Shown: in pieces, positions 5,315 to 17,614 of the stretch
How the letters are laid out: each line of letters starts with the position of its first letter
Position numbering within the stretch: position 1 is the stretch's first letter
Assembly: GCA_026004795.1 (NCBI GenBank)
Contig: BPJV01000011.1
Location: forward strand, 1-64,000
DNA from: Pirellulaceae bacterium
GTDB lineage: Bacteria > Planctomycetota > Planctomycetia > Pirellulales > Pirellulaceae
Reading direction: 5' to 3'
Length of the DNA stretch: 64,000 bases
Translations under genes and position numbers: made by a program
The notes under the pieces: model-generated
Database searches by the model: none
Told to the model about the DNA's origin: nothing
Seen by the model: only the letters and a program-made list of their open reading frames with translations

Positions 5315-5672
5315 GCCCAGTTCTCCCAAGAAACAATAGCGACACCGATTCGTTCGACGAGACGGCAATTAAGAACAATAAACGCCAGAAAAAGAGACCT
5401 GCTCGGATCCCGCTAATGACGTTTTTATCGCAATACAAAGGCAAATACAACTAAATCGTCAATTCGCTGTACCTCGCCCAGCAGCCGGAGCGGCATGTGG
5501 AGGAGAGTCGGGATCATCGTCAAATGATGGCTACGGCGATTCGTGACGCGTAAGCAAAGGCCTGAATCGTCGTTGAAAACGGCCTCGCGGCGCCGCCGGT
5601 GCAATCACGTCGGAAAAAAAGTTTGGTCTCTTCATGATCGTCGGTAACGGACTTACTTCTACCCTCCGCAGC
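5315..5672. other. Intergenic, no gene seen
   Basis: About 360 nt, AT-richer around 5365-5460, between the start of the minus-strand secreted-protein cluster and the end of the glycosyltransferase gene at 5673. It probably carries the promoter of the downstream cluster. I could not identify convincing -35/-10 boxes or a terminator. Confidence 0.4.
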
Positions 5673-7043
5673 TCAAGGGGTCACTGAACCAGTACTTCCT
5701 CTTGAACGAGACGACGACCGACTGCCGAACAACTGACTGCGGAACACTGCGGCAGCCGCGAGCACTATCAAACACTTGATTCCAACCAATGGCGCGCCAT
5801 ACCGCTCGTAGTAGCTGATCAACACGTACGGTATCAGATAGACGACATAGATGCCGATGGCCGCCGAGACCGGCCGCGGCAGCCGATCAGGTCCCAACAG
5901 GACGATGGCCAACAGGCTGGGCAGCGGCAGTGCGAAGACGACGCGCTTGACGATCAACAACCAAGGCGTCTCGCCGATATCATCGAAAAACGGTTCGTAC
6001 CACAGGCAGGCCGCCGACCAGCGATTCAAGATCCGTTCGATTACCGACCATGGGTCGCGCGTCACCTTCTCCCACACCGGCTGTTTCAGACTGTCCAGAA
6101 AGCCGATTTCCCCTTTCTCGACATACGCACGTCGTTGGGCGCCGGCGGAAAGCCACGGATGTTTGCGAATGGATTGCATGTCCAAAACGCCATCGGTATC
6201 CAGGCACAGCGACTGCCAGATTTCATAGATTGCGTTGGATTTGATCGGCACCCATCGTCCCAGCACCAGCCGGTTTCTGATCGCCCACGGAGCGACCACG
6301 ATCATCGACAGCACCGCCGCGCAGGCGAGTTGGGTTGCCCGGTTTCTGTCGATCGTCCGCCGCGACCATCGATCGTCCGGATCGCCACTCGCCCGCCGAC
6401 GCCTGATCGGCCAAAGCTTCCAGGTCGTCAGGACCGCCCAAGTCGCCCCGACAACCGGGTTGACCAGCGCCACCGAGCCACCGAATACGCCCCAGGCGCC
6501 GACGCGCCAGTCGCACCTCGGCAGCCACTCGCGACACAATCCCAACCACAATCCGTTGACGCAAGCCAAGATCAACAAGGTGTCGTGGGTTATCTGAAAC
6601 AGAGCGTGAAAGTCGGCGCAAAAAAATGCAATCACGGTTGCCACACCGACCCACCAAATCCGTTGGCAACGCGCAAAACGCAGCACCAACCAGGCGGTCC
6701 AGGTGACGACCAGCAATTGCAATCCGTAAACGATCCACACCACCTGTTGGCGATCGTCCCCGGTCAACCAGTACAACAGCGCCGTGATGGCGGGCAACAC
6801 CGGCGGCATCCAGGCCGTCGGACCGGACTCGGTGCGAAACGGGTCGGCGAACCCGCGCCCCTGGCGAATCGCTTGTGCGATCGAATCGTACTCCGCCCCC
6901 AAGTGATCGATCTGGTCCGGTCCCAACCACTCCAGCCGCTCGACCCGATTCCACGCCGCGATGCCGGCCAGCAGGCCCACGATCAACACGGCCGCCAGCA
7001 CATCCCGATCCAACACGTGCCTGATCGGCAGTCGTCGCCCCAT
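5673..7043 (-). CDS. Polytopic GT-C type glycosyltransferase (GT39/GT83-like)
   Basis: 456-residue integral membrane protein with about 10-12 hydrophobic segments, expected in the cytoplasmic membrane using a polyprenyl-phosphate sugar donor. The first TM (VLAAVLIVGLLAGIAAW) is followed by a loop with GAEYDSIAQAIRQGRGF and later TAWMPPVLPAITALLYWLTG, the pattern of the ArnT/PMT-like superfamily, where an acidic residue in the first external loop is catalytic. The last TM segments (IGIYVVYLIPYVLISYYERYGAPLVG) precede a Ser/Arg-rich tail. It starts 2 nt after the stop of the DUF1559 gene, so the two are cotranscribed. The acceptor is unknown; a secreted protein is a reasonable guess. Confidence 0.75.
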   Translation of the reverse strand: MGRRLPIRHVLDRDVLAAVLIVGLLAGIAAWNRVERLEWLGPDQIDHLGAEYDSIAQAIRQGRGFADPFRTESGPTAWMPPVLPAITALLYWLTGDDRQQVVWIVYGLQLLVVTWTAWLVLRFARCQRIWWVGVATVIAFFCADFHALFQITHDTLLILACVNGLWLGLCREWLPRCDWRVGAWGVFGGSVALVNPVVGATWAVLTTWKLWPIRRRRASGDPDDRWSRRTIDRNRATQLACAAVLSMIVVAPWAIRNRLVLGRWVPIKSNAIYEIWQSLCLDTDGVLDMQSIRKHPWLSAGAQRRAYVEKGEIGFLDSLKQPVWEKVTRDPWSVIERILNRWSAACLWYEPFFDDIGETPWLLIVKRVVFALPLPSLLAIVLLGPDRLPRPVSAAIGIYVVYLIPYVLISYYERYGAPLVGIKCLIVLAAAAVFRSQLFGSRSSSRSRGSTGSVTP

Positions 7044-7045
7044 CT

Positions 7046-7990
7046 TCAGTCACGGCCCGCCGGAGTCAATCGCGCGGTCAACACGGCCTGGTCCACCTCG
7101 AACGCGATCAGCTCGACGTGCCCGTCGCCGAAGGCGAAGTGCGAACCGCCGCTGTGGGCCGATCCCCAGTTGAGCCGGAAAGGCGCGCCCGGTCGCGACG
7201 GCACGTTCCTCGTCCCTTCACGGCTGGTTCCCTGCGATCCGCCGATCCAGATCGGTTCATCCCAAAACCAGCTCGTTTCGACTTGAATGTGCGGATCGAA
7301 CGCCTTCTCACCCACCAGGATCGTTTCGCTCAGCCCATCGACGATCTCGGCGAACCGCACATTTCGGCCCACGTTGGGCATGGTGCGCAGGTTGCCTGCG
7401 TAATCGGTCTTTTCGAACACCAGACCGCCCGACTGATACTGGCCGTAGTTGTCATCGACCGTGGTGGCCGGAGCGCCGCGAGCCCGCGACGGGCAGCGGA
7501 ACACCGGCTGCACCGCGTAGCACGCCCCTTGCTGGTAAGCATTCTGTTGCTCGAGAAACGGCAAGATCGAAAAACACCACGGACCGGGCTGCTGTCGCGG
7601 CCGCCGCGACGGATCGCCCACACCCCACTTGCGTTCGATTCCGTCATCGTCAAAGGCGAACGTCGAAGGTTGCATGTCCGGTCCGCCGAGGATCTTCAGC
7701 GTATTTCCATCGACCGGTCCGCCGTTGCCGGGGAGCAACCGGTGGTTGCCGTGAAAATTCTGCAGCGCCAGTCCGATCTGCTTGGCATTGTTCGAGCACT
7801 GCGTTTTTCGCGCCGCCTCGCGGACCGCCTGCACGGCCGGCAGCAACAACCCGACCAGCACCCCGATAATCGCGATCACCACCAACAGCTCCACCAGGGT
7901 GAAAGCCGACCGCTGCTTAGCATGGCCTACCGCCCTTTCATGCCGATTCCGATTCTCCCCATCTAGCCATCGCTCACGCCCAATCATCAT
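7046..7990 (-). CDS. DUF1559 protein with type IV pilin-like N-terminus
   Basis: Member of the large planctomycete DUF1559 family. The prepilin-type cleavage and methylation motif [19 protein letters not shown] lies about 30 residues in, followed by [20 protein letters not shown], then the mature domain ending in the family's typical tail ([16 protein letters not shown], the SxHxGGxxxxxxDGxV element). It is probably processed by a prepilin peptidase and assembled or displayed at the cell envelope; function is unknown. The ATG at 7990 is the first of two adjacent Met codons; the frame is open to 8029 but those residues are not conserved in the family as I know it. Two nt upstream of a glycosyltransferase gene, suggesting functional linkage. 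Confidence 0.9.
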
Positions 7991-8106
7991 TCCACCCCCG
8001 TAACGTTCCGCTAATCTATCAGCTCCCAACCCTGCCTACTGCTACGCGACATCATTTTTTTCCCGGCAACCGTTATGACCCGCTTTGTTGTGTACGTGTG
8101 GATGAT

Positions 8107-9864
8107 TCACTCGGACGATTCCTCGAAAGCAGCCTCGCGGTTGCGCTGGGCCACTTCCGGACTGACATAATACACGCTAGTCGTGACAGACAATCGTTCC
8201 GTCGGTTCATGCTCGCGAAACCATCGATAACCCGGATCGACCAGATTGCGGGCAGACACAACCCACCACCCCGCTCGGTACGGGCCATGGACTGTCATCG
8301 CATGCATTCCGTCATCCGCATCAATGCCTAGCTTCTTGAAGTCGATACTCGGGATGGCGTAAAGGTAATAGACTGGGCGTTTATCGGGGTTGGTTTCCAC
8401 CCACTTTTTCAGGGTCAAAATGTCTTGGCCCCAGTCTAGATTACTATGCTCAAGGTACTTCCACCCTTCCCTCGGTCCGCCGATGGCCTCGGTAAAGTAA
8501 GCGTAGCTGCGTGGCAACACCGACAGGCTGCTCAGCGTGTACCACAGCACTAGCGCAACAATCGGGTACTGCCACTTACCGCGCAGCGACGCTACACCGG
8601 CGGCGATGAGCAGATAAAAGCACGGCAGAAACGGCAGTACGTATCGCAAGTGGTGATTGAAACCGGTTTGGCTGCTGACAAACACGAACAGTGCAATCCC
8701 TGGAGTAAACACGATCGCACGAGCGACCAGGCGGGTTCTATTCCCGCAGCGAAATCGATGCTTGCCCCACGCGACCAGCCCGATCGCCGCCATCAACCAC
8801 AGGGCGACCGGTTCCTTCAGCCACAGACCGACGAGGTAATAGTACCACCAGCCGCCGTTTCGCCGCTGGCCAAGAAAATAGGACGTCATCTTGCCTTCAA
8901 AATCGGACTTTTGGATGTCAATGCCTCGAATATACGCGGCCGGCAGCGGTGCCGGCAGTCGGCCCAACCAGGTACCGCGAAAGCGGTTCCCGCTGCTGCT
9001 CGGGGAGGCACTGGAGTCATCACCGCGCAGCGAATCGCTAACGAATTCGAACTTTTCCAGCGGTACCAGCGTCCCCTGGAATTCGTACGCCGCATGGATC
9101 ACCAACCAGCACACGGCGGCAATGGCCGCGCCTTGCTTCCATCGCCGGCTCCACTGCCACCGTCGCGGACAGACCACCCCGTAACCGATGGTCATCAGCG
9201 CCATCATCGGCGGCAGGATTAGCCAGGTCGCTTTGCTCAGCATGGCCAATCCCGTGGCGATTCCCAACCACCACGCGGTGTTGACCGCCCCGATGCGGAG
9301 CCAAACGTAGAACCGCCAGGCGGCCAACAGACCGAACACGGCCGCCGTCGCGTCCGGCATAATCGAGGCACCGAAGGTCAGCACCGTGGGCGAAAAAGCC
9401 CACAACGCCGCCGCGATTCTACCCGTACGCTCGTCGAACAATCGTGTTCCTACCATCCACATCAGATACGTCCCGAACAGTGTGATCGGGATGACGGCCG
9501 TGCGCGCAACGGACATCCAGGAAAATGCTCGTTCCCCGTGTCGCGCGATGTACAACCACCCCAAGGGGCCTTCAGGGCGAAACCCCGGAGAGCGAGGTAA
9601 CGGTTCGAAGTCAATGCCCCCTCCGGCCAGCCACACCGGCACAGCACCGATCAATCGCGTCAGCGGCGGATTGACACAATACGGCGTAGGATCTCCGTAC
9701 TGCAACTGATACAAGCCGCTAGGCAAGTGCCCCCACTCGTCCCAACCCGGGCCCGTACCCCAAGCCACCGTCAACAAGCAGATGGCCTGAACGCTACATA
9801 ATATGAATAGGTAGCCAAACCGACTGGACTTGGACCGGTTTAGAGTATCGCCGATCCCCGGCAT
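8107..9864 (-). CDS. Polytopic GT-C glycosyltransferase (dolichyl-P-mannose mannosyltransferase-like)
   Basis: 585 residues with about a dozen TM segments. After the first TM comes GWDEWGHLPSGLYQLQYGD, with the Asp-Glu pair in the first periplasmic loop typical of PMT/ArnT-type enzymes, then NPPLTRLIGAVPVW. A soluble C-terminal part (about 480-585) includes HSNLDWGQDILTLKKW, a motif I associate with the C-terminus of planctomycete GT39-like proteins. Starts 9 nt after the stop of the anchored-protein gene at 9874, so it probably belongs to the same transcript as the eight-Cys protein module and may modify its products. Donor and acceptor are unknown. Confidence 0.75.
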   Translation of the reverse strand: MPGIGDTLNRSKSSRFGYLFILCSVQAICLLTVAWGTGPGWDEWGHLPSGLYQLQYGDPTPYCVNPPLTRLIGAVPVWLAGGGIDFEPLPRSPGFRPEGPLGWLYIARHGERAFSWMSVARTAVIPITLFGTYLMWMVGTRLFDERTGRIAAALWAFSPTVLTFGASIMPDATAAVFGLLAAWRFYVWLRIGAVNTAWWLGIATGLAMLSKATWLILPPMMALMTIGYGVVCPRRWQWSRRWKQGAAIAAVCWLVIHAAYEFQGTLVPLEKFEFVSDSLRGDDSSASPSSSGNRFRGTWLGRLPAPLPAAYIRGIDIQKSDFEGKMTSYFLGQRRNGGWWYYYLVGLWLKEPVALWLMAAIGLVAWGKHRFRCGNRTRLVARAIVFTPGIALFVFVSSQTGFNHHLRYVLPFLPCFYLLIAAGVASLRGKWQYPIVALVLWYTLSSLSVLPRSYAYFTEAIGGPREGWKYLEHSNLDWGQDILTLKKWVETNPDKRPVYYLYAIPSIDFKKLGIDADDGMHAMTVHGPYRAGWWVVSARNLVDPGYRWFREHEPTERLSVTTSVYYVSPEVAQRNREAAFEESSE

Positions 9865-9873
9865 CTTGCACCC

Positions 9874-10875
9874 TCAACGGCCGCTTAGCCGACGATAAAT
9901 CCCATAAGCGGCAACCAACGCAATGGCTATTCCTAAAATCGCCAGCCTGCGCGTCCACGTTCCACCCCGACTCAGCTCCATTCCCTCCACTGCAAAGATC
10001 CCGTCCGGCACCGGCGACCAATCGATCTCTTCTAACGTGTACTCGACCTTACTCCAGACGTCTTCTTTCGCGGTCTTAATGTCGCGAACAATCTTCGTAG
10101 GGATATGCCGAGACCGCGGAACGTCATACTCTTTGGTGACGGTATGGAAGGCGTAGCCGTTCGGCATCGTGGACTCCAATTGCTCGTACGATAGCACGAC
10201 TGCGGAGCTCAAATCATACGTGATCCGACCTACCATCGATCCGGTGACGCTCTCGTCTCCCAGAGTCCCCCAGTCCCACTGAGAAGTCAGGGCTAGCTCA
10301 CCACCTTTCCGCTCCATCTTCAGAGGCCGGCACACTTTTGCTGTTAACGAACTTGCTTCAGTACTGTATTCCACGTCATCCTGATAGCCCCAAGGAACTT
10401 CACCGTCCAGAACTCGATCGTATCGAGTTGATGCCGCATAGAACTCGTACACTGATAACGCTTCGATGCCGTCTTCGAAGGAGCCCAAAGCCGTTATTGC
10501 ATCTCCCTGTTCCGTTCGTTTCAAACGAACGTACCGTCCTGGACGGACGATCAGCTTGTAATGTTCGCTCGGTTTTCCGTCGGCAATTGTCTGTTCGTCG
10601 ACCCGAAAATACTGATTATCTCGCGCCCAGTACCGGACCACTTTTTCCTCGTAATAGCCATTTGATCCTTTCTCGATAAATTGATAAACCAAATGAACGT
10701 TCCCGTAGTCGTTCTTACGAATGTCCGAGAATTTCTTGTGTAACTCCATCGCCGTCGAATGGATGACAGCCGCATCGAGGTCTTGGGATCTACAGTATTT
10801 GACCGATACCCCGAGTACGGTTAGCAATACGATTCGAATAGTGAGCACACAAGCAGGTCGCCAACGAACACACAT
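9874..10875 (-). CDS. Signal-peptide protein with C-terminal membrane anchor, module copy A
   Basis: 333 residues from the ATG at 10875, which follows a GGAGAAGGG ribosome site. No named family recognised; the fold could be a LolA-like beta sheet. An N-terminal hydrophobic segment (IRIVLLTVLGVSVKYC) serves as signal, and the C-terminus is a single TM preceded by WTRRL and followed by YRRLSGR, so most of the protein should be outside the cytoplasm. It shares with copies B (13716-14729) and C (15416-16333) the motifs YWARDNQYFRVD, IVRPGRYVRL, FGSFEDG and G-F-x-x-x-x-G before WTRR. Preceded by an eight-Cys peptide gene with a terminator-like hairpin between them; followed 9 nt later by a GT-C gene. 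Confidence 0.65.
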   Translation of the reverse strand: MCVRWRPACVLTIRIVLLTVLGVSVKYCRSQDLDAAVIHSTAMELHKKFSDIRKNDYGNVHLVYQFIEKGSNGYYEEKVVRYWARDNQYFRVDEQTIADGKPSEHYKLIVRPGRYVRLKRTEQGDAITALGSFEDGIEALSVYEFYAASTRYDRVLDGEVPWGYQDDVEYSTEASSLTAKVCRPLKMERKGGELALTSQWDWGTLGDESVTGSMVGRITYDLSSAVVLSYEQLESTMPNGYAFHTVTKEYDVPRSRHIPTKIVRDIKTAKEDVWSKVEYTLEEIDWSPVPDGIFAVEGMELSRGGTWTRRLAILGIAIALVAAYGIYRRLSGR

Positions 10876-10891
10876 AACGTTGCCCTTCTCC

Positions 10892-10934
10892 AAAAAAGGC
10901 GAGCGCCCCACGCGTGAGGCGTGGGGCGATCGCC
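10892..10934 (-). terminator. Intrinsic terminator/attenuator between peptide A and anchored protein A
   Basis: On the minus strand, 15 pairs with a single mismatch: GGCGA (10934-10930), mismatch, CGCCCCACGC (10928-10919), loop 10918-10914, GCGTGGGGCG (10913-10904), mismatch, TCGCC (10902-10898). Six T follow at 10897-10892. This is a textbook Rho-independent terminator placed inside the module, 17 nt before the start codon of the anchored protein. It would make the peptide far more abundant than the downstream products. Confidence 0.85.
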
Positions 10935-10966
10935 GATGCTACTCACGCACCTCGGGCCATCACGCA

Positions 10967-11227
10967 CTACATAGCTTCACACTTGCACCCGCCAGAAGCT
11001 CGTTGAAGGCAGGACGAGCATGCCTTGCCCGTAACGCTGGGAACGCACTTGCCTGTCTGAAGTGAACCGGATTCGCACGTTGTCCCAGAGACAACACAAG
11101 GAGCTGTCGCCGACGGCGAACACGTATGCCCAGGCATGGCCATGACCCGAGACGAAGGCAGTACGACTACCACCACCGCAATTACCAGTCCTGCCGTGGC
11201 CAGCATACTCAACAACCGTTCTTTCAT
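10967..11227 (-). CDS. Small exported eight-cysteine protein, module copy A
   Basis: 86 residues. Residues 1-30 are a classical signal peptide (MKERLLSMLATAGLVIAVVV, cleavage after the VMA near residue 30). The mature part of about 56 residues has exactly eight Cys with spacing C-x7-C-x6-C-x9-C-x8-C-x2-C-x7-C-x-C. Its ATG overlaps the stop of the DUF1573-domain gene (TGATG), so translation is coupled. Copies B and C have the same signal peptide and eight Cys but quite different loops. I recognise no known family; a disulfide-rich secreted peptide (structural, adhesive, signalling or toxic) is the honest limit. Confidence 0.75.
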   Translation of the reverse strand: MKERLLSMLATAGLVIAVVVVVLPSSRVMAMPGHTCSPSATAPCVVSGTTCESGSLQTGKCVPSVTGKACSSCLQRASGGCKCEAM

Positions 11228-11877
11228 CACTGCACTCCTTCATCAAGAGAACCGTCGTCCGAGATGTCGCTGCTCGGACGAACCACAACCGTTACGTTGA
11301 GCACCATGCGCAACGCAGCATCTGCATCGAATATCAACTCCGCCCTCTCCCGCTGGACGGTACTTGCGCGAACTCCATATACTCGAAGTCGAATCGACTT
11401 GTCTCCTCCCGGCGCGACCGTTGTGGGCAAGTCCAAAATGGCAACGCAACTGCAGGATGCCTTGGCCCCTAAGACATCGACCGGGGCCGACGTAGGATTG
11501 TGCAACCGGAAAGGCACATCGACAAACTCGCCCTCTTTAACCTCGCCCGCGAACTTCGTAAATGAATCCACAACGAGTGGATCGCCCGAAAGATAACTTC
11601 GGGCTGCATCGAGAGAACCAAACCAGGCAATGCCACCGAGCAACAAAGCCGGCAGAACGACGTGGAGGTTGCGGATCTGATCAAAGACAAGTCCATGCCC
11701 ACGCCACAACCGCTCCCAAGAACGTCGAAACAGCAGCAGCGAAACAAGAGCCATCCCATCGACGGCCGCCATCACACCCAACGGCAGCGACAGGCTTCCC
11801 AGGCAATCGCACCGCTGCTCACCGTCGATCCACTTGATCCCCAAGACAAACAAGAAGAACAGAAACACCCCGGTCAA
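11227..11877 (-). CDS. C-terminal part of MauE-like membrane domain plus DUF1573 domain
   Basis: 216 residues as an independent frame beginning with TTG. It opens in the middle of a MauE/DoxX-like four-helix membrane domain (GVFLFFLFVLGIKWIDG, then QRCDCLG, the counterpart of the CGCFG motif of MauE), has two more TM segments, and ends in an extracytoplasmic DUF1573 Ig-like domain (about 100-205, with ASCSCVAI matching the family's Cys-containing strand). One T too many at 11876-11878 separates it from the upstream GT2/MauE frame; removing it gives one continuous protein. It overlaps the next gene, the eight-Cys peptide, by TGATG. Possible readings are a real mutation, a programmed frameshift or an error. 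Confidence 0.7.
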   Translation of the reverse strand: MTGVFLFFLFVLGIKWIDGEQRCDCLGSLSLPLGVMAAVDGMALVSLLLFRRSWERLWRGHGLVFDQIRNLHVVLPALLLGGIAWFGSLDAARSYLSGDPLVVDSFTKFAGEVKEGEFVDVPFRLHNPTSAPVDVLGAKASCSCVAILDLPTTVAPGGDKSIRLRVYGVRASTVQRERAELIFDADAALRMVLNVTVVVRPSSDISDDGSLDEGVQ

Positions 11878-12937
11878 ACACTGCTCTCAGCAGCCGATGA
11901 GGCACCAGAGTCAAGCACGCCCATCCCAACGCAATTTCGATGACCGACCCTACGAGAACCATCGGTGCCGGGACGATCCACCATGACGTGATTGCCATCG
12001 GGCTGAGCGGCGCGATCTTCGAGGCGCCGGCCAGCAATAACAGACACCCGATAGCCACGCGCGAAGCGACGTATCCGTAATCGTGCACCGAGAGGGAGGA
12101 ACGGCCATCCTGGGGATCCCTAGTCAACCCTGAGCCTGAAAATCGATATCGAACGTAAGTCCAAGCCGCGGAAAAGAAGTCGCGGATTCCAATCTTTTTC
12201 CCCTCCGCCACTCCGCGAGGCTCATACCGGATCGGCACTTCTGCGATCTCGTATCCCGCCCGCAACAACCTGCTGTTGATTTCCGCACACAATTCGAAGC
12301 CACGACTCCTAAGATTCATTGCCCGCAAGACATCGCGACGAATCATCTTGTAACAGGTATGCGGGTCGCTCAGCCAGCGGCCGTAAAGCAACCATTGAAG
12401 AAGTGCTAGAACTCTGACGCCGACATAATTCAGCCAGCGCCCACCATCTACATGCCCGCGACGTTTGAAACGAGAGCCGTAAACGGCAACTCCGCTACCG
12501 CTGTCCGCCTCCTCAGCCAGACGACGAAGATCCTCCGGCTCGTACTCCAAATCCGCGTCCTGGATAACCACCCACCGACGGGTTGCAAGCTTAAGCCCAC
12601 GCCGAACCGCCGCACCTTTGCCTGCGTTAGCTTCCATCCGCAGCACATGTAGATCGACCTCCCGAGCTAACCCATCGATCAACTCGCCAGTGCCGTCGGT
12701 GGATCCGTCATCGACCACAATGATTTCGGCTTCAGGTACCGCTCGGCGGACGCGACGCAACAGCGCCACCACCGTCGGTGCCTCGTTGTAACACGGAACG
12801 ATGACGGACAAGGACGCTGATATATCGCGAGAAGATTCGTCGGGGTGCGGTCGTTCGATCTCGCCATCGAGCGCCGCCCGATCGCGCAGGTTGAGCTGAA
12901 CTGATTCGCCGCCGGTAATCACGTCCGCTTCCGTCAC
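11819..12937 (-). CDS. GT2 family glycosyltransferase fused to the start of a MauE-like membrane domain
   Basis: 372 residues. The GT2 domain occupies about 40-275: SVIVPCYNEAPTVVALLRRV, the EIIVVDDGSTDGT strand-turn, the DXD-type QDADLEYEP and EVPIRYEPRGVAEGKKI near its end, most like polyprenyl-phosphate-glucose/mannose synthases (cytoplasmic). After a short linker comes a membrane segment pair (VASRVAIGCLLLLAGASKI, then a second helix) that is the N-terminal half of a MauE/DoxX domain. The frame then leaves the family at a TTT run (11876-11878) and stops at 11819; the other half follows in the 11227-11877 frame. The GTG at 12937 is the likely start. Copy 2 of this gene survives only as a remnant near 17.1-17.3 kb. 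Confidence 0.75.
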   Translation of the reverse strand: MTEADVITGGESVQLNLRDRAALDGEIERPHPDESSRDISASLSVIVPCYNEAPTVVALLRRVRRAVPEAEIIVVDDGSTDGTGELIDGLAREVDLHVLRMEANAGKGAAVRRGLKLATRRWVVIQDADLEYEPEDLRRLAEEADSGSGVAVYGSRFKRRGHVDGGRWLNYVGVRVLALLQWLLYGRWLSDPHTCYKMIRRDVLRAMNLRSRGFELCAEINSRLLRAGYEIAEVPIRYEPRGVAEGKKIGIRDFFSAAWTYVRYRFSGSGLTRDPQDGRSSLSVHDYGYVASRVAIGCLLLLAGASKIAPLSPMAITSWWIVPAPMVLVGSVIEIALGWACLTLVPHRLLRAVFDRGVSVLLVCLGDQVDRR

Positions 12938-13715
12938 ATCCCCCGCGGCACCCAGCGCCCCGCAAGCGTCTTTCAGGTCACAGTCTGGCGATCTGGCGAT
13001 CTGATTCTAGCATGCGAATCGCCTCCAGAGATGATTATGGGCTTTATTGGCTCACGCCTCTGCGGCATAGTTATAACAATTGCTCAGCCGATGTCAATGC
13101 TTTTATGGAATTTTATTCATCACTAAGGGCTTTCTACTGGTCGTGCGGTAAGCTGCCACCGTGCCGGTGATGGGGCGCGCTCCCATCGCTTCTCCGGCGC
13201 GGCAAGGGGCCGGTGGTGTGGCATCTGCTGCCGAAACGGTGCTGGGCTTTAGCCACACGGGCGAATTCCCTTTCCTCTACTCAGTGCTTGGGGGGCGGTG
13301 TAAGACGAGCCTCCTTCGCTCTATCCAAGGCACGGACACGCGGTACCACGCTTGTCCGCTTATCTCGATCGCTTCTCGGTCCACGCTGTCAACTTAACCA
13401 GCAACACTTCAATTACCGGTGCCTCGGCTCCACCGCGCCGCTCAGCAAACTGGCCTCCGCAAAAAGCCGAAAGCCGGAGGGAAACGCTGCCGTTTTGCGT
13501 CGCCAAGCATGTCGTTTCCTAAAGCATCACGGCATCAATACTAAATTTCGGAAAGTCGCTCCCATTGCCATCGATCTACGCATCGCAACACGACGAACGC
13601 ATCCAGGATCTAGAGGGTTCTTTCCCCGCCGAAACTGCCCCCATTCGTTCAACACGCGTGCCGTACGCTGTCTAAGGAGTTCATGCCAAGGACCACAGTC
13701 GGGAACCTCAGCGGT
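12938..13715. other. Long leader/intergenic region with one copy of a 158-bp repeat
   Basis: Gene-free. AT-rich at about 13000-13130, which probably holds the minus-strand promoter of the GT2-peptide transcript. 13134-13291 is nearly identical to 17456-17614. The remaining 13292-13715 is featureless to me. Confidence 0.5.
13134..13291. repeat. 158-bp direct repeat, copy 1 (with 17456-17614)
   Basis: Begins CTACTGGTCGTGCGG and ends TCAGTGCTTGG; most bases agree with 17456-17614, best over the first 120. Both copies lie roughly 200 nt upstream of a GT2 start codon or its remnant, so this is part of a duplicated leader rather than a mobile element. Confidence 0.9.
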
Positions 13716-14729
13716 TCACCTCTGCTTTTTCATGCGCCGATACGCGACAAAGCCGCCCAGCAGTGCCAGCCCGATGACTAACAGAATCAGCCGGCGCGTC
13801 CAGACGAATTGTTTGGGTATTCCTTGGGCATCTAAAGAAAATATTCCCAATGGTGCAGGTTCCATGTTAAGTTCTTCGAGCTCCAAAAGATCAGTCGATG
13901 CAATGCCACCTCCGGCGGAACTCCTCACGATCTTCTTCACGACAGGGATTGGACCATACTGATCGAATCGGTACTCATAGGTCACATGGCTTTCTCGACG
14001 AGGAGCGTCTCCACCGGCGTCTCGTCGCTCGTAAGCAAGAACAACACCATGATCTAGATCGTATTTCACGGAGAAAACGCCCCGCAACGCGCCTTGCAAA
14101 AAGACGGATTCCACGTCGAAGAGTCCGTCCTGCAATTCGCGAACGCGGCGAATGCGGTACGATGGCAATACTTTTTGAAAGATTGGATAAATTTCCAATT
14201 CGCTTGCTAGTGCACCGAAAACTATCTCAGCCTGAGCAATTTCCTCGGTAGTCGTAGAGGCAGCAAAGAACAGCTCGCTTGTGACACGCTCAACACCCGT
14301 TTCCCAGCTCCCAAATTCAGTAATGGCGAACTGGTCAGTTCCCGGCTCACAGACCAAGTACACATAGCCTTCCGGGCGGACGATCAGACGTGTCCTACTA
14401 CCTTTTAATTCCCTGGCCGAAGACTCGACGACTCTACGATCGATGCGGTAGTATTGTGCATCCCGTGACCAGAATCGGACGTCCGTGACTTGCCGGCGGA
14501 CTGGTTTTCCATCTTCTGCATGTGTTTTTGTCTCGGTGACGTGCAGGAAAATGTTGCCATAGATATCGCGGCGGATCTCATGAAATCTGCGATGCAGATC
14601 AGCGAGGAGTTCTTTGGCACGAGGCTCATCGATCGCTTGTTGTTCAACCTCTGGCGTGTTTTTTTGAGATAAGGCCGTAGTATTAGAAAACAAAAGAAGA
14701 ATTCCCAGCGCGCACATGTTCCAGCCCAT
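13716..14729 (-). CDS. Signal-peptide protein with C-terminal membrane anchor, module copy B
   Basis: 337 residues from the ATG at 14729 (AGAGGGTG upstream). Paralogue of the proteins at 9874 and 15416: signal segment MCALGILLLFSNTTALSQ, motifs FWSRDAQYYRID, IVRPEGYVYL, FGSWETG, and at the end FVWTRRLILLVIGLALLGG followed by YRRMKKQR, a type I topology with a short basic cytoplasmic tail. Paired with the eight-Cys peptide B upstream, with a hairpin between. Last gene of the B/C unit; downstream is the leader region of unit A. Function unknown. Confidence 0.65.
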   Translation of the reverse strand: MGWNMCALGILLLFSNTTALSQKNTPEVEQQAIDEPRAKELLADLHRRFHEIRRDIYGNIFLHVTETKTHAEDGKPVRRQVTDVRFWSRDAQYYRIDRRVVESSARELKGSRTRLIVRPEGYVYLVCEPGTDQFAITEFGSWETGVERVTSELFFAASTTTEEIAQAEIVFGALASELEIYPIFQKVLPSYRIRRVRELQDGLFDVESVFLQGALRGVFSVKYDLDHGVVLAYERRDAGGDAPRRESHVTYEYRFDQYGPIPVVKKIVRSSAGGGIASTDLLELEELNMEPAPLGIFSLDAQGIPKQFVWTRRLILLVIGLALLGGFVAYRRMKKQR

Positions 14730-14802
14730 TCGCAGCACCCTCTTATTCGTAACACCCCCTAGTTCCAATCGCACTGGTAAATCCGCCGCCTTGCGAGCGG
14801 CC

Positions 14803-14837
14803 AAACATCGCCATGGAGAGCTTGCACCATGGCGATG
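14803..14837 (-). terminator. Hairpin between peptide B and anchored protein B
   Basis: CATCGCCATGG (14806-14816) and CCATGGCGATG (14827-14837) form a perfect 11-bp stem with a 10-nt loop. On the minus strand it is followed by TTTGG, a short T-tract. Same location as the terminator in copy A, so probably an attenuator. Confidence 0.6.
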
Positions 14838-14859
14838 AAAGCACTACACCATTTTTCGG

Positions 14860-15120
14860 CTAGCCGGCGCGACACCGGCAGCCTAGACGCTTCGTGCTCT
14901 TGCAGCCACAACTGGTAGCACCAGTGCACACTCCGGCCGGTAGGCTAGTTTCACACAAAAATGTCATAGGATCCGTCCGGCAGCCTGGCGGCGCTTCAGT
15001 GCAGTTCGGCGGCGGTCCGCCGCTCGACCAGGCAAGGGCCCGACTTGTCGGCAAGAGCACCATCACCAACCCCACGACCAGTCCTGCCGTAGCCAGCAGA
15101 CTCAACAACCGTTCTTTCAT
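14860..15120 (-). CDS. Small exported eight-cysteine protein, module copy B
   Basis: 86 residues from the ATG at 15120 with GGAGTG 6 nt upstream, the same ribosome site as in copies A and C. Signal peptide MKERLLSLLATAGLVVGLVM with cleavage after ALA near residue 30. The mature part has eight Cys spaced C-x6-C-x8-C-x8-C-x5-C-x-C-x7-C-x-C and ends CRCRAG. Unlike A and C there is no DUF1573 reading frame directly upstream; it follows anchored protein C on the same strand after about 295 nt. Family unknown. Confidence 0.75.
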   Translation of the reverse strand: MKERLLSLLATAGLVVGLVMVLLPTSRALAWSSGGPPPNCTEAPPGCRTDPMTFLCETSLPAGVCTGATSCGCKSTKRLGCRCRAG

Positions 15121-15415
15121 TACTGCACTCCGATACTGAGCAGACTGCTGGCTAAGACGATTATATGGATTTAGTAATCCCACACCACAGTTCGTACCCG
15201 CAAGTTAATGCATCGCAGCCCTGTTTCGGAGCGACGATCCAACTCTGGTGTTCATTCACTTAACAGCCACTTGCCCCAACGGAAACAGCGCAACGCTACA
15301 GTCAATCATCCACATCATACGGTCAATCCTCCATGTCACCTGTCCACGGCAGCCGCCCCCAGACCCCAGCGCCCCACCACACCTGCAACTAGCATTCGCT
15401 GAGCACGCGAGGCAA

Positions 15416-16333
15416 TCACTCATTCCTGTACCTTCGACGAAAGGCCAGAAAACCTCCGAGAACCGCTAAACCAACGACGAACAGAATCAGCCGCCGCGTC
15501 CAGACGGCTCTTTGAGCTACGCCCTGCACTTCCAGCGAGAAGAGCCCCAAATCGGCTGGTTCTTCCTTAATTACCTTAGTGCGGAAGACTGTACTGAATT
15601 CTTCACCGCTCTCGTTAATCAAGACCGTCATCTCATTCGGTACGCACGATTCTTCGTAATTCTTATTAACCTGCGTCGTCACCACTACGCGCCCCTCCTT
15701 TTCCCCCACTTCTTTCCAGCCAATGACAATTCCGCGCGCCACATCAATCTGCCTCGTGTACTTGTAGCTGACACCGCGGCTATCTGACAAAGGGTTTTCA
15801 TTAATTACAAGAATCGAACCATTCTTTTCTATTCCTTCAATATTGCTTAAGTTATCATCGTTGAGGAATCTGGAAACCACATCGTCAATATATGCATAGT
15901 AGCCTCTTATGTTTGCACGGAAGAACGGGTGCGAATACAACCGGTTCATTCCGTCTTCCACACTTCCGAAATCAGCGATCGCATAGCTGCTGCCATCCTT
16001 GGCGATCAAGCGAACATACCCTTCTGGACGAACTATGATGCGCTCACCAGTGTACGGAATATTTGAAGGCTTTCCTTCGACGAAGGATGAATCTAAGCGG
16101 AAATACTTTCCGTCGCGTGACCAGAACCGATGGAGCAGTCGCGTTCTTCCCTCGGAAGAATCTCGTGTTTCCTCCCACTCAGCTTGCAGATTATCGAAGC
16201 ACTTAGAGGACGATGCAATTGAATTCCGCACTTCAATAAGAAGCGACCGGAATTCCTGAGAATCACTGAGAAAGGAGGAGCTAAGAACGAGTTGAAGACT
16301 CAGCCATGTGAGAATCTCAGGCATTCGATTCAT
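15416..16333 (-). CDS. Signal-peptide protein with C-terminal membrane anchor, module copy C
   Basis: 305 residues. Most divergent of the three paralogues and visibly AT-richer than its neighbours, yet keeps FWSRDGKYFRLD, IVRPEGYVRL, FGSVEDG, LGLFSLEVQG and AVWTRRLILFVVGLAVLGG with a basic tail. The N-terminus (ILTWLSLQLVLSSSFLSDS) is a plausible signal. Follows eight-Cys peptide C by about 245 nt containing a hairpin and an A/T run. The different base composition suggests either recent acquisition or relaxed selection, but the frame is intact. Confidence 0.6.
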   Translation of the reverse strand: MNRMPEILTWLSLQLVLSSSFLSDSQEFRSLLIEVRNSIASSSKCFDNLQAEWEETRDSSEGRTRLLHRFWSRDGKYFRLDSSFVEGKPSNIPYTGERIIVRPEGYVRLIAKDGSSYAIADFGSVEDGMNRLYSHPFFRANIRGYYAYIDDVVSRFLNDDNLSNIEGIEKNGSILVINENPLSDSRGVSYKYTRQIDVARGIVIGWKEVGEKEGRVVVTTQVNKNYEESCVPNEMTVLINESGEEFSTVFRTKVIKEEPADLGLFSLEVQGVAQRAVWTRRLILFVVGLAVLGGFLAFRRRYRNE

Positions 16334-16368
16334 CTTTACCTCGGTTTAAATGCTCGTGCTGACTTGGC

Positions 16369-16420
16369 AAAAAATCCGTCACTAGTCACCAGGCTTGGAG
16401 ACATCTCGCCGAGCCTGTGA
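16369..16420 (-). terminator. Hairpin plus T-run between peptide C and anchored protein C
   Basis: TCAC-C-AGGCT (16386-16395) pairs with AGCCTGTGA (16412-16420) with one bulged C; an inner GAGA/TCTC pair adds stability. A T6 run follows on the minus strand at 16374-16369, about 11 nt after the stem. Weaker than in copies A and B but in the same place. Confidence 0.45.
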
Positions 16421-16578
16421 AGAAGCTTGACCCGAAAACCGCGCCTTTGTGTAACGTGAAAACGCTGAGAGACTTCGGGCGAAAGCGAGCTACCTTCTTG
16501 AGGTAACTCACTAGCGCCGCACAGCCCACTGCCTTCATGCGTTACCGAAACAAGTCTGATTCGTTCTATCAGCTCTCG

Positions 16579-16860
16579 TTACTGGCAATTGCACGTTCCA
16601 TTCCCAGTAAATGGATTTCTGCCGGAAAGGCAGGGGCAACCGTCACCGGTCGCCGAAGTCTCGAAGCAGGCGCCGGGTGGTTGAGTTGAAGCACAGCCCA
16701 ACTCCGGGCCGACTCCTACCGAGACGCAACCTGTACCACCGCATGTTTTTTGGGGTCCGTCGCTCGACCAGGCAAGGGCGCGACTTGTCGGCAAGAGCAC
16801 CATCACCAACCCCACGACCAGTCGTGCCGTAGCCAGCAGACTCAACAACCGTTCTTTCAT
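16579..16860 (-). CDS. Small exported eight-cysteine protein, module copy C
   Basis: 93 residues. Same signal peptide as copy B except one residue (LLATARLVVG); mature part with eight Cys spaced C-x4-C-x10-C-x8-C-x9-C-x-C-x12-C-x-C and ending in CNCQ. As in copy A its ATG overlaps the TGA of the upstream DUF1573 frame (TGATG), although here that frame is only a remnant, showing that the coupling is ancestral. First gene of a C-B four-gene transcription unit. Confidence 0.75.
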   Translation of the reverse strand: MKERLLSLLATARLVVGLVMVLLPTSRALAWSSDGPQKTCGGTGCVSVGVGPELGCASTQPPGACFETSATGDGCPCLSGRNPFTGNGTCNCQ

Positions 16861-17270
16861 CAGTGCACTCCTTCATCAGGAGAACCGTCGTCCGCAATGT
16901 CACCACTCGGACGGGCTACAATCGTACCGTGGAGCACCATGCACAACGCAGCATCTGGTTCGAGTATCAACGCTGCCCTCTCCCGCTGGACGGCAGTTGC
17001 GCGAACTTTGTAGGCTCGCCTGCGAATTGACTTGTCGCGACACGGCGGGGTCGTCCCACGCAAATCCACAATGGCGACGCAACAGCGTCACCACCGTCGG
17101 CGCCTCGTTGTAACGCGGAATGATGACGGACAAGGACGCCGATAGATCGTGAGAAGATTCGTGGGGGTGCGGTCGTTCAATCTTGCCATTGATCGCCGCC
17201 CCGTTTGAAAAGTCGGGCCGCACCGCTTCGCTCCTGGATATCACGACCGGTTCTGCCGCATGCCCCGCGG
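16860..17270 (-). pseudogene. Remnant of the GT2-MauE-DUF1573 gene (deleted second copy)
   Basis: Two pieces of the 11227-12937 gene joined by a large internal deletion. The upstream part matches the GT2 N-terminus (KIERPHPHESSHDLSASLSV, then IIPRYNEAPTVVTLLRR). The downstream part, in another frame, matches the DUF1573 C-terminus (ATAVQRERAALILEPDAAL ending in SPDEGVH). Nearly all of the GT2 catalytic region and the whole MauE domain are missing. It proves that the whole locus was duplicated before copy 2 decayed. Confidence 0.85.
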
Positions 17271-17455
17271 TACCCACTGTCCCGTCAGCGTCTTTCGGGT
17301 CACAGTCTGGCGATCTGATTCGTCCATGCGAATCGCATCCAGAGAAGAATATGGGGCTTTGGGGATCACGCATTTAGTATCTTTTTATAGCGATTGCTTT
17401 TCCATTGCAACCATTTTGCGGAAGGGTGTACACCACTAGTGTCGTCAGTAGGCGG

Positions 17456-17614
17456 CTACTGGTCGTGCGGTAAGCTGCCACCGTGCCGGTGATGGGGCGC
17501 GCTCCTATCGCTCCTCCGGCGCGGCAAGGGGCCGGTGGTGTGGCATCTGCTGCCGAAACGGTGCTGGGCTTTATCCCACACGGGTGGATTCCCTTTCTTC
17601 CACTCAGTGCTTGG
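17456..17614. repeat. 158-bp direct repeat, copy 2 (with 13134-13291)
   Basis: Near-identical to 13134-13291. It marks the upstream boundary of the duplicated locus as far as I can see; similarity fades after TCAGTGCTTGG. Confidence 0.9.

Follow-up and report, generated by a model that had tools for sequence, protein, structure and literature searches.

We describe a gene cluster of planctomycetes in which a short, exported, cysteine-rich protein is encoded directly ahead of a membrane-anchored partner. The stretch analysed, called the window below, comprises 64 kilobases (kb) from a Pirellulaceae bacterium (assembly GCA_026004795.1, contig BPJV01000011.1) and holds three such pairs, all on the minus strand. 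The short proteins are called minis and their partners anchors; these names, like the L-numbers given to loci, are labels of this analysis. Adjacency, recurrence and co-variation of the two sequences support the mini/anchor pair as a real unit, and the recurrence of the cluster suggests an undescribed system that deploys variable miniproteins.

A preliminary description of the window had listed three small genes, each followed on the same strand by a paralogue of one partner, and all six were found in place (Table 1). As it stated, the three minis have a common signal peptide, eight mature cysteines and a CxC motif at or near the end. The divergence of their loops was also borne out: BLASTN (E up to 1e-4) gave no similarity between the mature parts of copies 2 and 3, and the DNA of their signal peptides is 96% identical over 118 nucleotides (nt). 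Each mini has a hydrophobic N-terminal segment. The open reading frames (ORFs) extend over 10967-11230, 14860-15183 and 16579-16860, and the likely start codons are the ATGs at 11227, 15120 and 16860, which open the peptide MKERLL. In copy 1 the ATG overlaps the stop codon (TGA) of the DUF1573 ORF described below by one base, with AAGGAG seven bases upstream. Minis were defined by a length of at most 175 residues, a hydrophobic start, at least six mature cysteines and a cysteine content of at least 7%. Among the ORFs of the window this definition selects just the three minis, and in 201,007 bases of other loci, both strands included, it returned a background of four ORFs, two of which (L089, L111) resemble module members by eye. 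The window minis stay below the cut-offs of all Pfam and NCBIfam families, and a search for solved structures resembling a mini returned none (best E 0.15).

The anchors of the window have 305-362 residues and, as described earlier for all three pairs, end in W-T-R-R-L and one hydrophobic transmembrane (TM) segment, followed by a short basic tail. The second and third are 31% and 27% identical to the first. Against Pfam and NCBIfam, none of the three scores above the cut-off of any family. No Pfam match to LolA, LolB or RseB was obtained with the three window anchors (E up to 1) or with three other anchors (E up to 0.1), and a sequence search of the PDB with the anchor found no solved relative and no LolA, LolB or RseB match. 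An AlphaFold2 model of partner 3 predicts the half-barrel of the LolA/LolB/RseB superfamily; its structure matches also include DUF1329, VioE, ependymin-related and ApoB chains. Given the failed sequence-profile comparison, the anchor is not filed here as a LolA despite this predicted fold. Profile comparison places the window-type anchors and those found across the order in one family (probability 99.1, E 8e-19, 286 columns including the C-terminal TM segment). Seven proteins tested against the PADLOC anti-phage defence profiles (E up to 0.01) matched none of the families.

Upstream of copy 1, at 11227-12937, lies a frameshifted gene that the earlier list had overlooked, a fusion of a GT2 glycosyltransferase domain with MauE, a redox membrane domain, and DUF1573, which contributes a CxC domain. 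The GT2 part exceeds the curated cut-off of PF00535 (23.3 bits; score in Table 1). For DUF1573 (PF07610, cut-off 26.1 bits), the homologue P0001 of strain CA13 reaches 39.1 bits, and the window copy and P0003 (22.7 bits) stay below. For MauE (PF07291, cut-off 27 bits), P0001 scores 27.9 and P0003 stays below at 21.6; the frameshifted ORFs of the window gave no MauE match in Pfam. A CxC motif lies in the last 130 residues of 49/59 ORFs carrying the DUF1573 part, and anywhere in 53/59, while 26 of 29 MauE-part matches carry CxC[FLM]G.

The window anchor of copy 2 matched in 4 of 197 genomes and an anchor profile in 10 of the 396 genomes of the order, the window's own genome being among the four. 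These rare matches gave a first impression of a small local family, which the wider MauE/DUF1573 search described below overturned. The relatives of the window type lie in a Pirellulaceae metagenome-assembled genome (MAG; L023), in CA13 (L024, and two copies in L025), in Rhodopirellula (now Allorhodopirellula) solitaria CA85 (L026) and in the MAG OFTM151 (L047). All five loci have the order MauE-DUF1573, mini, anchor, PMT-family glycosyltransferase. GT2 is fused to MauE-DUF1573 in L023, L026 and L047; of the two copies in L025, one has the fusion and one retains only a DUF1573 remnant. In L023 and L026 a gene of the apolipoprotein N-acyltransferase (Lnt) family stands between anchor and PMT gene. 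The minis of these relatives have eight mature cysteines, and that of the more distant L049 has ten, or eleven if its signal ends earlier. When 241 genomes of the family were searched with the window-type mini alone, nine matches were obtained, and all nine lie beside an anchor, as read in the window, in L013 (the copy on contig C1 of the same genome) and in L023-L026. Anchors without a mini occur in L014, L045, L046, L050 and L051, and in L048 at a contig end.

Mini and anchor stand side by side again across the order, and also in a second order of the class. A MauE-DUF1573 profile (E up to 1e-8, at most 6 candidates scored per genome) matched in 46/396 genomes of the order, the window's own included. 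Fifty-nine loci were read, 52 from this search (L087-L138) and seven found earlier via the anchor. They contain 68 MauE/DUF1573 ORFs, and 63 remained after exclusion of five with less than 350 nt downstream. An exported cysteine-rich mini lies directly downstream on the same strand (-60 to 800 nt) of 41 of these 63, counts that are not all independent, since some minis are counted from two ORFs and seven come from anchor-found loci. The opposite strand gave 0/63; upstream, minis were found on the same strand in 2/63 and on the opposite strand in 0/63. Restricted to the 52 loci of the search, the downstream count is 34/55. L024 is scored as a miss although it has a mini, whose ORF overlaps the upstream gene. 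Counted by locus there are 37 distinct minis, L090 and L091 holding an identical sequence; a mini-like ORF in L099 (starting MEKCVW), which looked spurious by eye, was left out of the mini, co-variation and anchor-order counts.

An ORF of at least 200 residues follows the mini within 700 nt in 31 cases. Thirty of these match the anchor profiles, which is partly circular because many of them built the profile, and 29 have a C-terminal TM segment, for which 67 of 178 control ORFs of 250-450 residues (spurious ORFs and anchors included) that also end in a hydrophobic stretch make a weak control. At the loci picked by DUF1573, one of 44 anchors has an upstream mini on the opposite strand. The arrangements of the 44 are DUF1573-mini-anchor (25), mini-anchor-DUF1573 (3), mini-anchor (3) and no mini (13). 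The same trio is carried by L170, L179, L180 and L182 of the second order of the class; in L172 and L173 three ORFs match both the anchor and the DUF1573 profiles. Tandem anchor paralogues without any mini occur in L178 (four, with a DUF1573 match nearby) and L181 (five). The view that the two genes belong together is supported by 9/9 window-type minis adjoining an anchor and by 31/44 anchors of the DUF1573-picked loci following a mini on the same strand; it held in part only for anchors in general, 13 of these 44 and 17/22 and 7/13 of those in the two anchor-picked sets having no mini upstream.

The claim of exactly eight cysteines held in the window and in 9/10 window-type minis, L049 being the exception, and failed across the order, where the 37 minis have 6 (5 minis), 7 (1), 8 (12), 9 (4), 10 (9), 11 (5) or 13 (1) mature cysteines; a strict eight-cysteine rule is ruled out by this range. 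A CxC within the last 16 residues is kept in 36/37. Such repeated CxC motifs could also be read as metal handling, with the minis binding copper or another soft metal and delivering it to or from the anchor. Both the number and the spacing of mini cysteines vary, however, and the anchors have anywhere from 0 to 8 cysteines, so that we regard this explanation as very improbable.

To compare how the parts of the module diverged, Mantel tests were used, which do not fully remove shared ancestry. In the ten window-type pairs, similarity between mature minis correlates with similarity between anchors (r 0.81, P 5e-5), and the mature mini against its own signal peptide gave r 0.13 (P 0.19). The mini-anchor correlation is robust, with r 0.75 without L023, 0.80 without L049 and 0.68 with all cysteines removed. 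The mature mini of copy 3 is 66% identical to that of L023, in another genome, and the anchor of copy 3 is also nearest that of L023 (38%). Across the order, 29 cassettes have an anchor of 280-450 residues with a C-terminal TM segment, and the 28 that remain without one duplicate gave a mini-anchor r of 0.46, or 0.39 given DUF1573 (0/5000 permutations as high); mini against DUF1573 given the anchor was 0.13 (P 0.06). Because of these correlations the mature mini and the anchor seem to travel as a unit, with the signal peptide and the redox machinery in common.

Two further explanations were considered. The mini could be a structural or adhesive component, cross-linked by disulfides within a protein-based cell wall or surface and retained there by the anchor. 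A wall brick would not be expected to have hypervariable mature parts or to co-vary with a cognate partner, and the distribution is patchy, as noted above for the window anchor (4/197 genomes). Cysteine-rich proteins have been reported in planctomycete cell walls (PMC8567305), and those are YTV-domain proteins; a structural or adhesive role appears improbable. Co-variation with an anchored partner would suit a peptide and its signalling receptor, in quorum or kin signalling, and regulators lie near two clusters, an extracytoplasmic function (ECF) sigma factor in L094 and a GGDEF protein in L129. Both are on the opposite strand and were spotted by eye in 30 loci, and beyond its TM segment the anchor continues for no more than a short basic tail, which disfavours a signalling receptor; we think this reading quite improbable, slightly less so than metal handling.

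We propose instead, tentatively and with somewhat less than even confidence for the scheme as a whole, that the cluster is a cassette for a variable exported peptide and its own binding partner. The mini would be exported via a cleavable signal peptide and then oxidised to a disulfide-locked form by two dedicated redox partners that each carry CxC, the membrane-embedded MauE and the external DUF1573. DUF1573 would take up the electrons of the reduced mini and hand them to MauE, from which they would enter the membrane. The predicted LolA-fold protein, tethered by its single C-terminal TM segment, would bind its own mini, and the mature mini and anchor would diversify together while the signal peptide and redox machine stay common. 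Gene content and order, recurrence, the predicted fold of the anchor and the co-variation are what the analysis shows; the disulfide chemistry, the binding of mini to anchor and the antagonistic purpose discussed below are what we infer from them. As to the chemistry, DUF1573 is listed, in the tables of two papers, as a selenoprotein family with the motif UGC (PMC9312934, PMC13188914), which points to a redox-active CxC, and a passage on methylamine dehydrogenase speculates that MauE forms disulfides there (PMC7794033).

The pair had been likened beforehand to a secreted peptide and receptor, a toxin and immunity protein, or an adhesin and anchor. The pair is supported as a unit, and the shared MauE-DUF1573 partner, absent from that description, offers the most concrete mechanism. 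We consider it most likely that the mini acts as a secreted antagonist or as an effector at the surface, with the anchor as its cognate protein for immunity or retention at the membrane of the producer. The cognate co-variation and the arrays of anchors without minis lead us to prefer this; those of L178 and L181 resemble orphan immunity genes. A broader version is conceivable and somewhat doubtful: planctomycetes would have a widespread, undescribed system that deploys hypervariable, disulfide-locked miniproteins. It would combine an oxidase of its own, MauE-DUF1573, with mature peptides that can be exchanged behind a homogenised signal sequence and a co-varying LolA-fold anchor conferring immunity or identity, and arrays of lone anchors would protect against neighbours.

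Besides the ancestry left in the Mantel tests, several results weigh against the proposed cassette. The signal peptide also correlates with the anchor in the ten window-type pairs, weakly (r 0.40, P 0.03; 0.13 without L049). No mini by our definition follows 22/63 MauE/DUF1573 ORFs, and at the DUF1573-picked loci a mini-like ORF lies downstream of the anchor on the same strand in 8/44 (opposite strand 0/44). In the anchor-picked sets a mini lies upstream in only 5/22 anchors across the phylum and in 6/13 of the second set; given such low counts, the anchors may also serve some function independent of a mini. A structure model of the mini was uninformative, its mature part having a predicted local distance difference test (pLDDT) score below 50. 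The usual cargo of LolA folds is lipid, and immunity does not explain the nearby glycosyltransferases and Lnt-like genes.

Those genes, together with the LolA fold, make a carrier the main rival. Here the anchor would be a tethered chaperone or carrier. It would pass each oxidised mini, which might bear sugar or acyl groups, into a secretion route in which DUF1559 pseudopilins could take part. Co-variation would also be expected, because a carrier must fit its cargo. LolA and LolB, which the anchor model resembles, have a carrier fold; Lnt-like genes occur in L023, L026, L049 and L125, and among 30 loci examined PMT homologues are found in nine and DUF1559 homologues in eight. DUF1559 genes are very common in planctomycetes, however, so that their nearness is weak evidence. 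The window-type minis have no lipobox by eye, L049 perhaps excepted, and anchor arrays without minis would be odd for a dedicated carrier. We consider a carrier unlikely, although less so than the structural, signalling and metal explanations. Lnt-like enzymes could acylate the mini or something else. If anchors are carriers, they would represent a new way of export that makes use of the LolA fold; if they are immunity proteins, as we prefer, a new antagonism system.

The preliminary description knew of no named system of this kind, and among the papers listed in literature searches on MauE, DUF1573, LolA, NVEALA and planctomycete cysteine-rich and DUF1559 proteins, no title or abstract opening names one. 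The anchor has the predicted fold of LolA, LolB and RseB and differs from them in lacking a Pfam or PDB sequence match, in its C-terminal TM segment and in its cysteine-rich mini or DUF1573 neighbour. Maturation of methylamine dehydrogenase by MauE and MauD likewise involves a MauE-family membrane protein with a cysteine-rich exported protein, whereas in the present clusters MauE forms a fusion or a pair with DUF1573, and the exported protein, the mini, is hypervariable. NVEALA peptides of Bacteroides are short cysteine-rich exported proteins with a conserved leader; their Pfam profile (PF14055) gave no matches in 11 genomes, this one included. Bacteriocin/immunity pairs also combine an exported variable peptide, an adjacent cognate membrane-anchored protein and partner-only arrays, a likeness that extends here to adjacency and co-variation only; no named family covers mini or anchor above cut-off, and redox and glycosylation genes are added. 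The MauE-containing candidate families of ribosomally synthesized and post-translationally modified peptides (RiPPs) that decRiPPter proposed in Streptomyces place MauE beside a short precursor (PMC7794033). They belong to another phylum; here the leader of the mini reads as an ordinary export signal, DUF1573 and a LolA-fold anchor are added, and MauE/DUF1573 would be the candidate modifying enzymes. DUF1573, a domain of unknown function, thereby gains a candidate role in oxidising an adjacent cysteine-rich exported protein, and the loci expose a diverse planctomycete stock of natural cysteine-rich miniproteins, each with a genome-encoded candidate binder.

Table 1. Genes of the three modules and their neighbours in the window
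Feature	Position	Strand	Remarks
Multi-pass membrane protein	5673..7043	-	Loosely associated, L025 having a homologue; no Pfam match
DUF1559 pseudopilin-like protein	7046..8029	-	PF07596 148.4 bits and N_methyl motif; looser association
PMT-family glycosyltransferase	8107..9864	-	PF13231 34.5 bits, cut-off 26.1
Anchored partner 1	9874..10911	-	C-terminal TM; in one family with the modelled half-barrel
Exported miniprotein 1	10967..11227	-	Signal peptide, eight Cys, C-terminal CxC; start overlaps DUF1573 stop
Second half of MauE (CxCxG) and DUF1573 (CxC)	11227..11877	-	DUF1573 25.0 bits (cut-off 26.1); MauE-DUF1573 profile
GT2 glycosyltransferase domain and first half of MauE	11819..12937	-	PF00535 118.5 bits; frameshift before next ORF
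Anchored partner 2	13716..14804	-	Partner of miniprotein 2; paralogue with C-terminal TM
Exported miniprotein 2	14860..15120	-	Eight Cys, C-terminal CxC
Anchored partner 3	15416..16333	-	The anchor modelled with AlphaFold2
Exported miniprotein 3	16579..16860	-	Eight Cys, C-terminal CxC; 66% identity with the L023 mini over the mature part
Remnant of GT2...DUF1573 gene upstream of copy 3	16900..17373	-	DNA repeats

The pairs of the earlier gene list were correct, and besides the GT2-MauE-DUF1573 gene it had omitted the remnant upstream of copy 3 and the PMT and DUF1559 genes downstream (Table 1). The remnant is recognised by DNA repeats, 16771-17070 against 11138-11437 (77%) and 17074-17317 against 12752-12995 (82%). 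Homologues of the PMT protein lie downstream of the anchor in L023, L024, L025, L026, L047 and L049 (phmmer E 6.7e-229 to 1.7e-32). DUF1559 homologues are present in the clusters of L023, L024, L025 and L047, and none was found at L026.

The cluster of copy 1 is duplicated on contig C1 (L013) at 96.1% identity over 7.5 kb, from 5517-13003 of the window and 2728-10207 of L013. From the mini through the anchor into the PMT gene (window 9017-11266) the copies are 99.6-100% identical, and this falls to 88-92% at 5517-6766 and 87-88% at 12517-13003, as if the core had been homogenised. Each copy has a frameshift in its GT2-MauE-DUF1573 gene, though not at the same place (11819-11877 in the window, 9872-9998 in L013), which may reflect decay or a sequencing or assembly error; on C1 most of GT2, MauE and DUF1573 lies within one frame of 521 residues, the break being nearer the gene start. 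A 121-nt repeat, 98% identical, stands upstream of modules 1 and 3 (13134-13254 and 17456-17576) and may mark a duplication boundary; no further copies were found in the genome at E up to 0.001.

The Lnt-like genes are at L023:8571-10118, L026:4246-5805, L049:3300-5048 and L125:7-1356, assigned by Pfam in L023 and L049 and by similarity to L023 in the other two. The two opposite-strand regulators are at L094:5819-6454 (ECF sigma factor) and L129:6309-6977 (GGDEF protein). More distant cassettes or anchors also occur elsewhere in the window's own genome, on contigs C1, C3, C4 and C13 (L174, L175, L176, L177).

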